64,000 nucleotides of DNA from a virus: the IMG/VR virus record IMGVR_UViG_3300034158_000007, positions 1 to 64,000 of that record, one strand, 5' to 3'. Within the stretch, counting starts at the first letter, position 1. The number at the start of each line of letters is the position of its first letter. The notes under the pieces were generated by a model. That model was not told the DNA's origin, made no database searches, and saw only the letters and a program-made list of their open reading frames with translations. A program made the position numbers and the translations under genes. This document shows positions 217 through 63,530 of the stretch, one piece after another.

Positions 217-2103
217 ATGATTCGTGACCTCGACACCGCAGCTGCTCCATCCGCTCAACAAGCTCCAACTAGCGCAACTGAATTCGTTCAACAAGCACCA
301 ACACAGGCACCTCAGATGACTCAACAAAATCAATTCAACGGTGGTATCGGTAACGTTAACTCGTTCTTCGAGCGTTCCGGTAAAACCCAAGGCGGCGATG
401 CCCGCTCCAGCGAAGCTCTGCAAATCTTCACTCGCCTGAAGGATCAAGCAGTTTCGCAACAAGACCTGGTTAACGATTTCCAGATCCTGCGCTTCGACCG
501 CGATCAGAACCAAGTAGGTTGGTCCTCGCTGGTTATCGCTAAACTGTCCACCATCGGTGGTCAGCCTGTTATCGCTATCCGTCCACTGATCATGCCTAAC
601 CCAGGCATCGAACTGCCAGCCACCAAGCACACTCTGCAAGTTGGCCTGCATCAAGAAGTGATCGAGTCGGAAGTAGACGTCGCTACCGTATTCAGCAAGC
701 AGTACTTCGCTCGTCTGAAAGCGTTCGTCCAAGCATCGTTCGGCAAGCCGACTGCTGAAGTCGTACTGTCCGGTGCATACCCGATCCCAGCCGAGTTCGA
801 TCTGAAGACCGGCGAACTGCAACTGCGCGACCTGCTGATCAAATCGGTAAACGCCTGTGAAGACTTCCTCCGTCGTAAGTCGGGTGAGTCGCCATTCACC
901 GTTGGTATCCTGAAAGGTCAAGAAGAAAGCCTGGCCGCTAAGATCGATACCCGCGATCAACCAGTTCACGACGTTCTGGGTAACCCAATCCGTTCCGACG
1001 TTGTTGTAAGCATGCAGCGCGTTAAGCGTCACGGTCAGGTTCAAGAGAACGAGTTCTACGAAGCTGACGTTAAGCTGAACCAAGTCTCGATGTTCACCAA
1101 CCTCGAGTATCAGCAAACTCAAGTAGCTGCTCCGGTATTCGGCCAACAGGCTCAAGCACCAGTAGCTCCATGCGTTGCAGCAGTAGTTGTAACTGACGTT
1201 CGTCAGGCTGACTGGATCAAAGCCAACACTCCAGAAATGTACTGGTTGGCAATGACTAACGCCTACCGTTCGACTCACGGCCACGCTTGGGCTCGCCCAT
1301 TCGTTCCACAGACCGGTAAAGTGAAAGACCTGCGTGACATCGGTGCACTGGGCTACCTGAGCCAGCTGCAAAACAAGATCGATACCAAAGCTGCATCTTT
1401 CGATGACGCTCAGTTCGGTCAACTGATGCTGCAAATGGTACAGCAGACTCCTGTGTTCCAGATCGACCTCAACCGCATGGGTGAGAACGGCGCAGTAGAC
1501 GGCATGCTGTTGGATGCCGGTGGTGGTGCAAACCAAGTCAAAGCAGTGCAAGCAATCGCTCGCCAGATCAGCAACCTGATCGGTGGTGACTTCAAGCAGT
1601 TCTTCGACTACACCACTCAGCCTATCCTGATCAAGACTGGTCAGATCGTAGACCTGGGCTACTACTTCGACGAAGACGGTGAGAAACGTGACCGTCGTGA
1701 ACTCGACAACCTGGGCGCTCTGAACGCCGCTGAAGGTAACGTGCAAGAATGGTGGGGCTACTACGGTTCCCAGCAGAACACCGCACTGCACCCAGCTGTA
1801 CGTAACAAGCAGTCCCGTAACTACGACCGTCAGTACCTCGGCGCAACCGTAACTTACACCGGCAAAGCCGAACGTTGCACCTTCAACCCGAAGTTCATCG
1901 AAGCTCTGGACGCTGCCATCTGCGCAGCTGGCCTGCAAGTGACCATGGACAACACTTCGGTGCTGAACAACGGTCAGCGCTTCACCGGTAACGGTGCAAT
2001 CCAGCAGTTCATGGTTAACGGTCAGGCTAACGTTTCGACCTTTAACGGTGGCCAGCAGTCCTACGGTGCACAGCCAGGCGCTGGTGTTGGTTCGTTCTAC
2101 TAA
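217..2103 (+). CDS. chmA: Chimallin, major phage-nucleus shell protein (ChmA, phiKZ gp54-like)
   Basis: ChmA self-assembles into the single-layer protein lattice that encloses replicating phage DNA and excludes host nucleases. The 628-residue product matches the 201phi2-1 shell protein (gp105, about 631 aa) closely as I remember it: a Q/A/P-rich disordered N-terminus (about residues 1-45), then FFERSGKTQGGDAR, ILRFDRDQNQVGWSSLVIAK, STHGHAWARPF, NYDRQYLGATVTYTGKAERC and a C-terminus ending SFY. The flexible termini are the segments that lock neighbouring subunits together in the known structures. The start is preceded by an AAAGGAAA ribosome site. The gene is monocistronic, with an early promoter in front and a UUCG hairpin terminator behind, which suits an abundant early protein. 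Confidence 0.97.
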   Translation: MIRDLDTAAAPSAQQAPTSATEFVQQAPTQAPQMTQQNQFNGGIGNVNSFFERSGKTQGGDARSSEALQIFTRLKDQAVSQQDLVNDFQILRFDRDQNQVGWSSLVIAKLSTIGGQPVIAIRPLIMPNPGIELPATKHTLQVGLHQEVIESEVDVATVFSKQYFARLKAFVQASFGKPTAEVVLSGAYPIPAEFDLKTGELQLRDLLIKSVNACEDFLRRKSGESPFTVGILKGQEESLAAKIDTRDQPVHDVLGNPIRSDVVVSMQRVKRHGQVQENEFYEADVKLNQVSMFTNLEYQQTQVAAPVFGQQAQAPVAPCVAAVVVTDVRQADWIKANTPEMYWLAMTNAYRSTHGHAWARPFVPQTGKVKDLRDIGALGYLSQLQNKIDTKAASFDDAQFGQLMLQMVQQTPVFQIDLNRMGENGAVDGMLLDAGGGANQVKAVQAIARQISNLIGGDFKQFFDYTTQPILIKTGQIVDLGYYFDEDGEKRDRRELDNLGALNAAEGNVQEWWGYYGSQQNTALHPAVRNKQSRNYDRQYLGATVTYTGKAERCTFNPKFIEALDAAICAAGLQVTMDNTSVLNNGQRFTGNGAIQQFMVNGQANVSTFNGGQQSYGAQPGAGVGSFY

Positions 2104-62146: not shown

Positions 62147-62169
62147 AGCTATTTAAAGAGTATATTACT
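62147..62169 (+). promoter_or_regulatory. phiKZ-type early promoter for the terminal accessory region
   Basis: TATATTAC at 62161-62168, with ATTTAAAGAG immediately upstream. The short AGTGAATTCACT palindrome lies just behind (62171-62182). Confidence 0.85.
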
Positions 62170-62196
62170 TTAGTGAATTCACTGGAGTAGTACTAC

Positions 62197-62328
62197 ATGT
62201 CCGAACAGATGATTCAACAACGTAAAGCCGCCCATCGTGAAGCTCAAGACTCGTGGATCTCTCCTCGGGGCTTGGGGCTTTTATTCACTATCGGCCTTAC
62301 ACTCACTGTAATCTTTAACGGGGTGTAA
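62197..62328 (+). CDS. Tiny early membrane protein, 43 aa
   Basis: The ATG at 62197 is 29 bases behind the early box, with TGGAGTAG upstream. Charged N-terminus (SEQMIQQRKAAHREAQD) and one C-terminal membrane helix (GLGLLFTIGLTLTVIF). Single-pass inner-membrane peptide; function unknown. Confidence 0.65.
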   Translation: MSEQMIQQRKAAHREAQDSWISPRGLGLLFTIGLTLTVIFNGV

Positions 62329-62567: not shown

Positions 62568-63062
62568 ATGGTTGAATTCGTAATTGGAACAGATATATTT
62601 CGTCAAGAAGGCGACCTGTATCTGATCACCGTCAACTGCGTTGGCGTTATGGGTAAAGGTCTGGCTAAGAGCTTTAAAGAGCTACATCCCGACCTCTACG
62701 AACGTTATCGTCACGACTGCAAGATGAAGATCATCACGATCGGTAATCCCGCAATCTATCAGGCGGACAATGGTAAACGCTACATGATGTTCCCTACCAA
62801 AGATCGTTGGCAAGATCCTTCGCTCCCTGACTACATCTCCGCTGGTTTACAGTGGATGGTCGATTCAGTGATAACGGAAGATGACGATGAAGGGGATATC
62901 GACCCTAGTTGGCGGATAGTCATTCCCCCTCTAGGTTGTGCCAATGGTGGCCTTAGCTTCGCGACCGTAAAAGAAACGATCAAGCTATTCGCCTCTCACA
63001 TGCCAAACCCAATCGTGGTGGTCTATCCACCATGGATGGAACAAGACGATAAATGGGATTGA
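62568..63062 (+). CDS. DarG-type macro domain protein (ADP-ribosyl-DNA/protein hydrolase candidate)
   Basis: 164 residues forming a complete macro domain: ITVNCVGVMGKGLAKSFK (N23 in TVNC; G-x-M-G-x-G-x-A), FPTKDRW with K78, and IPPLGCANGGLSF (GCANGG 123-128). This is the DarG/ALC1-like layout in which an asparagine and a lysine at FPTK bind ADP-ribose and remove it from DNA thymidine. DarG antitoxins neutralise DarT toxins, so a stand-alone phage copy, behind an early promoter, is a candidate anti-DarT defence factor. It could also hydrolyse ADP-ribose signals. No DarT-like toxin is adjacent. GGAGACC precedes the ATG. Confidence 0.85.
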   Translation: MVEFVIGTDIFRQEGDLYLITVNCVGVMGKGLAKSFKELHPDLYERYRHDCKMKIITIGNPAIYQADNGKRYMMFPTKDRWQDPSLPDYISAGLQWMVDSVITEDDDEGDIDPSWRIVIPPLGCANGGLSFATVKETIKLFASHMPNPIVVVYPPWMEQDDKWD

Positions 63063-63070
63063 CCCCAAAC

Positions 63071-63102
63071 AAAGCCCCTACCAGACGGTGGGGGCTTTAT
63101 GC
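63071..63102 (+). terminator. Hairpin followed by TATG
   Basis: AAAGCCCCTACC-AGAC-GGTGGGGGCTTT, 12-bp stem with one wobble, then ATGCC (TATG at 63098-63101). Ends the macro-domain transcript. Confidence 0.75.
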
Positions 63103-63121
63103 CGCTTTATAGGAGATATGA

Positions 63122-63476: not shown

Positions 63477-63498
63477 ACCTATCACAGCGCTATATTAC
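63477..63498 (+). promoter_or_regulatory. phiKZ-type early promoter
   Basis: TATATTAC at 63491-63498, followed by TTTAGCGAAT as at 62161. The preceding TAGAACCTATC segment also matches the other promoters. Confidence 0.85.
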
Positions 63499-63530
63499 TT
63501 TAGCGAATAAACTAACTAGAGGTTAGCGTC

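Follow-up and report, generated by a model that had tools for sequence, protein, structure and literature searches.

A stand-alone DarG-type macrodomain in an early transcription unit of phiKZ-type jumbo phages, with a possible role against DarT

DarTG blocks phage replication, and phages have evolved anti-DarT factors (PMC11481870). AdfA of RB69/T4 and AdfB of ICP1 are such genes, found in other phages and unrelated to the gene described here (PMC11481870). On the bacterial side, the isolated macrodomain of DarG suffices as an antitoxin, and cells are rescued from DarT by it alone (PMC5179494). Taq DarG is damaged most by the mutations K80A and N22A; the K80A protein is inactive with no rescue, the activity of N22A is strongly impaired, and K29E also impairs activity (PMC5179494). 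A positive surface of DarG has been proposed to hold ssDNA (PMC5179494). SCO6735 of Streptomyces, a stand-alone DarG/TARG1-like macrodomain, reverses thymidine ADP-ribosylation and rescues cells from DarT (PMC9411070). Macrodomains are found in 56% of jumbo phages (PMC9503650), and it was noted in a structural survey that the alignment of viral macrodomains to DarG is confined to its macrodomain half (PMC12487901). Phage macrodomains, including the one treated here, have been annotated before; 201phi2-1 gp167 is listed as "contains ADP-ribose binding domain; similar to phiKZ gp104". In a literature search, I found no paper that tests the phiKZ gp104 family or names it as DarG-type. What is added here is the DarG-type placement, the conservation, and a charge shift.

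The window, which is the whole stretch of DNA analyzed in this study, covers the initial 64 kb of a virus record that is 134.6 kb in length and itself a fragment. Its features are listed in Table 1. The window encodes a chimallin-type nuclear shell protein and RNA polymerase beta-type subunits, and the named phages closest to it are Viktualia and 201phi2-1. Thus, the window phage is a nucleus-forming, phiKZ-type Pseudomonas jumbo phage. The chimallin gene matters for the question of whether the genome of this phage is accessible to a DNA-acting defence. The macrodomain ORF starts with ATG and has a GGAG upstream. A first-pass annotation had described a complete macrodomain with N23, K78 (FPTK), and GCANGG, and all of these are present. 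It had overlooked both the membership of the gene in the known phiKZ gp104/201phi2-1 gp167 family and the nucleus-forming nature of the phage.

Table 1. Positions of the macrodomain gene, its early unit, and related features in the window
Feature	Position	Strand	Remarks
Chimallin-type nuclear shell protein	217..2103	+	PHROG 4795, E 5e-193; context: nucleus-forming phage
Early (virion RNA polymerase) promoter box TATATTACTTTAGTG	62161..62175	+	fits the published 201phi2-1 consensus TATATTACDWHDGTG (PMC7058600)
Small ORF, 43 aa, opening the early unit	62197..62328	+	poorly conserved
Small ORF, 57 aa	62335..62508	+	position conserved in most relatives; 31-77% identity
Stand-alone DarG-type macrodomain	62568..63062	+	164 aa; orthologs phiKZ gp104, 201phi2-1 gp167, PhiPA3 gp108
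Asn23 codon	62634..62636	+	corresponds to N22 of Taq DarG; invariant (phage 18/18, bacteria 83/83)
Lys78 codon in FPTK	62799..62801	+	equivalent of Taq DarG catalytic K80 and TARG1 K84; invariant in 18/18 and 83/83
Acidic loop, residues 100-116	62865..62915	+	13-18 aa in the phage clade, 9 aa in all bacterial DarG compared
GCANGG loop, residues 123-128	62934..62951	+	residue 125 Ala here, Gly in 82/83 bacterial DarG
Hairpin (AAAGCCCCTACC....GGTGGGGGCTTT) then TTATGCCG	63071..63105	+	probable terminator; RNA fold -22 kcal/mol

To which type of macrodomain does the protein belong? The Pfam Macro profile (PF01661) matches it weakly, with an E value of 7.9e-5. Its sole NCBIfam match is to the N-terminal half of antitoxin_DarG (NF048014, E 3.9e-37), covering only positions 7-152 of the 338-position profile and scoring 128 bits against a cut-off of 250. 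The PADLOC match is to DarG only (E 3.4e-37). When PDB entries were ranked by a six-sequence profile, the DarG entries (1e-58, 2e-57, and 3e-35) preceded TARG1 (1e-13) and Poa1p (2e-9); SCO6735 resembles the phage protein far less (profile A1, E 0.0074). The AlphaFold2 model has a mean pLDDT of 92.6. Its best Foldseek matches are the DarG macrodomains 5M3I, 5M31, and 5M3E (E 2.5e-15 to 1.3e-14, TM 0.79-0.87; 2.5e-15 and 0.81/0.87 for the best one), followed by DarTG 7OMU and then by TARG1 at about 1e-8. Thus, the structural search against DarG that the first-pass annotation had proposed puts the DarG macrodomains on top, well ahead of TARG1 and Poa1p, and its label of a stand-alone DarG-type macrodomain is well supported by NCBIfam, PADLOC, the PDB profile, and Foldseek, with no DarT found. 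Sequence and predicted structure together provide good support for assigning the product to the DarG-type macrodomain enzyme class, and catalytic activity is predicted from this. An Appr-1-p/Poa1p identity, given in older annotations (PHROG 335 "phosphatase"), was rejected because Poa1p falls well behind DarG in the profile and fold rankings. The closest likeness is not to Poa1p, and no link to KptA/Tpt1, as for an Appr-1-p phosphatase of the Poa1p type, was seen in the phiKZ-type records.

An alignment of 101 sequences was made from the window protein, 17 further phage proteins, and 83 bacterial DarG. The residues N23, G26, G29, G31, T77, K78, G123, and G127 are invariant in all 18 phage and all 83 bacterial sequences. 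With the DarG macrodomains of Taq (5M31/5M3E), Mtb (5M3I), and Thermosipho (7OMU), the phage protein shares the fold, the invariant N/K active site, the VGVMGxG and FPTK..W motifs, and the GxxNGG loop; its identity to the Taq and Mtb proteins is 33-34% (TM 0.79-0.87). With human TARG1 and yeast Poa1p, both much weaker matches, it shares the superfamily and the ADP-ribose pocket, while the Asp of the TARG1 Lys/Asp dyad is Asn in the phage protein. Thus, a macrodomain with the catalytic Lys and the binding Asn of DarG is present. Unlike bacterial DarG, whose full length is about 340 aa, the protein ends at 164 aa without the C-terminal half that binds and blocks DarT, and it is not in an operon with a DarT partner.

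The promoter box TATATTACTTTAGTG starts 407 nt upstream of the macrodomain start codon, and two small ORFs lie between them. Thus, an early promoter precedes the macrodomain gene, though not immediately. The TATATTAC early promoter that characterizes phiKZ early genes (consensus in PMC7058600) is found upstream on the same strand, and in those jumbo phages that have been profiled, the virion polymerase uses motifs of this kind as early promoters (PMC7598289). An early promoter box lies 259-642 nt upstream of the gene in most relatives and farther away in two of them (L003 and D6); it was not found by exact pattern upstream of the gene in PhiPA3 and PS119XW. The box and its recurrence in most relatives make the earlier description of the gene as early a well supported prediction. 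The exact 13-mer of the box occurs in the window at 62161 and 63491 only. The second early promoter box, TATATTACTTTAGCG (63491-63505), is upstream of small ORFs without a homolog in the compared relatives. Just 3′ of the macrodomain gene, a hairpin of differing sequence is followed by an invariant TTAT in 12/12 aligned sequences, and thus the gene closes the early unit. The variable hairpin followed by an invariant TTAT(G).CG, in the window and 11 relatives, is likely to be a general terminator form of these phages.

Orthologs were found in phiKZ (gp104, 62.5% identity), 201phi2-1 (gp167, 79%), PhiPA3 (gp108, 66%), Phabio, Viktualia, PS119XW, and D6, and the nearest relative of the window protein is that of L002 (90%). 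All orthologs lie 3′ of the gp101 virion gene; the small ORFs in between number one to a few or, in the more divergent D6, about eleven. By sequence orthology and this synteny, the window gene is one more member of the phiKZ gp104 family. It shares the terminator hairpin with gp104, gp167, and gp108 and the early promoter box with most members, and nothing functional differs. It was reported in an antisense study that the gene is non-core in this phage family (PMC12571901). The dN/dS values are about 0.03-0.1 for pairs with usable dS, which indicates strong purifying selection. The macrodomain sits amid hypervariable small ORFs, and its identity between the window and phiKZ exceeds the 39-54% of the adjacent virion genes gp98-gp101. 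In the phylogenetic tree, the phiKZ-type macrodomains form one clade (support 98/84) set apart from classical bacterial DarG. The macrodomains of Erskinevirus/Seoulvirus adjoin this clade with weak support and a very long branch, while those of Kuravirus, Agricanvirus, Moabitevirus, and a Pseudoalteromonas phage lie inside the bacterial part of the tree. Since such solo DarG-type macrodomains of other phage groups fall elsewhere in the tree, it is likely that phages acquired the macrodomain more than once, although the branch lengths make this uncertain.

DarT (PF14487) was not found in the 134.6-kb record of the window phage or in 14 further phage records, which mostly span 280-325 kb. The former record is a fragment, and thus absence of DarT there alone is no proof. 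The earlier statement that no DarT toxin is nearby holds for this partial record and the 14 others, and a hidden DarT partner in the phage was rejected, as none was seen in the 15 records. A genome scan with the window protein alone returned no relative, while 80 bacterial DarG loci were obtained with an alignment as the query. Flanks were scanned for DarT with a profile derived from its plasmid-borne members: DarT is directly upstream in 70/80 bacterial loci and 3/3 plasmid loci but in 0/19 phage loci. Each phage record has one clear macrodomain, and PhiPA3 has a second, sub-threshold match. Neither KptA (RNA repair) nor NADAR was found in the phiKZ-type records searched; KptA was found only in Erwinia phage Ea35-70. 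PF14487 is present in 25/369 sampled gammaproteobacterial genomes, and no Pseudomonas is among the plasmids listed for DarT.

What might such an enzyme do for the phage? As the best explanation, held tentatively and at slightly less than an even chance, I propose an early ADP-ribosylhydrolase that would remove ADP-ribose applied by the host, with DarT-modified thymidine as its most likely site of action. The single-domain enzyme would be produced as soon as infection begins, from the short unit read by the virion RNA polymerase. Host shut-off by the phage might release host DarT-family toxins, whose ADP-ribosylation of phage (and host) DNA would then be undone by the macrodomain. The bond between ADP-ribose and the base would most likely be cleaved via the K78/N23 pocket, freeing unmodified nucleic acid and ADP-ribose. 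The macrodomain would thus serve the phage as an antitoxin that consists of the enzyme only, reversing damage and leaving the toxin unbound. An anti-DarT role is plausible. SCO6735, which reverses DarT marks (PMC9411070), is likewise a single macrodomain without a toxin partner; unlike the phage protein, it has Gln85 for the catalytic Lys and is cellular and DNA-damage-induced. AdfB was rejected as a homologous precedent for a DarG-like phage protein: it has 77 aa, binds DarT, is <15% similar to DarG, and is not a macrodomain (PMC11481870), while gp104 would act by catalysis.

The chances of thymidine-ADP-ribose being the substrate are about even, because three points count against it. Knock-down of phiKZ104 in PAO1 caused a weak decrease of ChmA without a substantial plaque effect (PMC12571901), DarTG was present in 1/100 P. 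aeruginosa isolates (PMC10855318), and the phage nucleus itself should shield phage DNA. The authors of the knock-down study predict that the gene is of benefit under stronger competition or where the host carries other defences (PMC12571901), and a DarTG of P. mendocina is known (PMC5179494). The slower evolution relative to the adjacent virion genes also argues against DarT; it is unlike a typical arms-race inhibitor and would suit a chemically fixed substrate, not necessarily that of DarT.

The phage clade differs from bacterial DarG in several traits. The phiKZ-type proteins are acidic, with a pI of 4.9-5.7 against a median of 8.4 for the bacterial DarG macrodomain. The pocket rim is less basic at position 30 (basic in 3/12 phiKZ-type against 73/83 bacterial sequences), position 82 (2/12 against 80/83), and position 84 (0/12 against 44/83). 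The loop at residues 100-116 is longer, Ile/Val (Ile in the window protein) replaces the first Asn of NTVN, Arg replaces His at 80, and most members have Ala for Gly at 125. The loss of basic rim residues and the acidity would speak against DarT as the target. Since most window proteins are acidic (median pI 5.6), the acidic pI is a softened argument against DNA, and the acidity of the macrodomain may partly reflect a generally acidic phage proteome. The altered rim, residues, and loop could mean a changed substrate, which is a caution and not proof, since a basic stretch on residues 46-54 is conserved across the clade.

It is possible, if rather unlikely, that an enzyme of the same class acts on another macromolecular substrate. 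This would be ADP-ribose on RNA or protein, either from other host ADP-ribosyltransferase defences (e.g., CmdT mRNA modification) or on the cytoplasmic translation/transcription machinery outside the nucleus. The basic-rim loss, the changes at residues 125 and 80, and the longer acidic loop suggest a changed target. The position of the phage clade apart from classical bacterial DarG also counts for this reading, and RNA and protein would stay exposed outside the phage nucleus. Among anti-phage transferases, one that modifies mRNA is known (PMC11618068), and some RNA linkages can be reversed by other types of macrodomain enzyme; the TARG1-like SCO6735, however, is inactive on 2′-OH RNA ADP-ribose (PMC11833690). 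Moreover, all library matches of the phage protein are to DarG, whose known substrate is thymidine-ADP-ribose in DNA, and no host partner was identified. It is doubtful that nucleus-forming jumbo phages have reprogrammed a conserved DarG-type eraser, with the less basic rim and the longer acidic loop as the mark of a new substrate. Such a substrate might be cytoplasmic RNA or protein that is ADP-ribosylated beyond the shelter of the nucleus, and the eraser would then be a general de-ADP-ribosylase rather than a simple anti-DarT factor.

Housekeeping or signal clean-up is an unlikely function, in which soluble ADP-ribose derivatives would be hydrolyzed, either ADP-ribose-1''-phosphate from RNA repair or the ADP-ribose signals of NAD-consuming defences. 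Slow evolution fits a metabolic enzyme, and older annotations label the gene with Appr-1-p processing or phosphatase activity. Soluble ADP-ribose derivatives are also macrodomain substrates, posited to be preferred by phage versions (PMC9503650), and NAD-consuming defences act on these phages (PMC13282480). On the other hand, the RNA-repair partner KptA/Tpt1 occurs only in Ea35-70 and in no phiKZ-type record searched, and the Appr-1-p phosphatase Poa1p is a far weaker match than DarG in sequence and fold. A protein that only binds ADP-ribose, a reader and not an eraser, is very improbable: most relatives have Ala or Thr at residue 30 (Taq K29, whose change to Glu impairs activity), but the window protein retains Lys there and the catalytic Lys and the Asn are invariant. 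Least probable of all is a toxin-antitoxin pair encoded by the phage, with the macrodomain as the antidote and an unrecognized transferase as the toxin. DarG domains are normally paired and the adjacent small ORFs are uncharacterized, but DarT is absent from the 15 phage records and those ORFs are small and poorly conserved beside a well conserved macrodomain.

The DarG-type placement turns the "hypothetical protein" and "phosphatase" labels on many phage records into a specific and quickly testable enzyme prediction. If the anti-DarT reading is true, phages would have an enzymatic counter to DarTG in which the damage is repaired and the toxin is left unbound, and it would lie in a model family, phiKZ, for which tools exist. 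No case of a phage enzyme countering DarTG by damage repair was found in the literature search. Why, then, would an eraser of DNA tags be needed when the phage DNA is walled off in the nucleus?

Several other loci were encountered during the survey. The Agricanvirus Erwinia phage Ea35-70 (L017 record) has both a KptA/Tpt1 RNA 2′-phosphotransferase gene (68384-68890) and a DarG-type macrodomain gene (112691-113137), and thus the macrodomain there could serve RNA repair. In seven bacterial DarG-type loci (L036, L042, L045, L062, L067, L087, and L099), DarT was undetected in the upstream flank of about 3 kb; these are possible orphan DarG genes. In a bacterial DarTG clade (L009, 1170-2504; L023-L030) near the attachment of the phage clade in the midpoint-rooted tree, DarT is about 415-490 aa in length, with a C-terminal HD domain where tested (Pfam HD, E 1.3e-6 in L009 and 1.5e-4 in L028).
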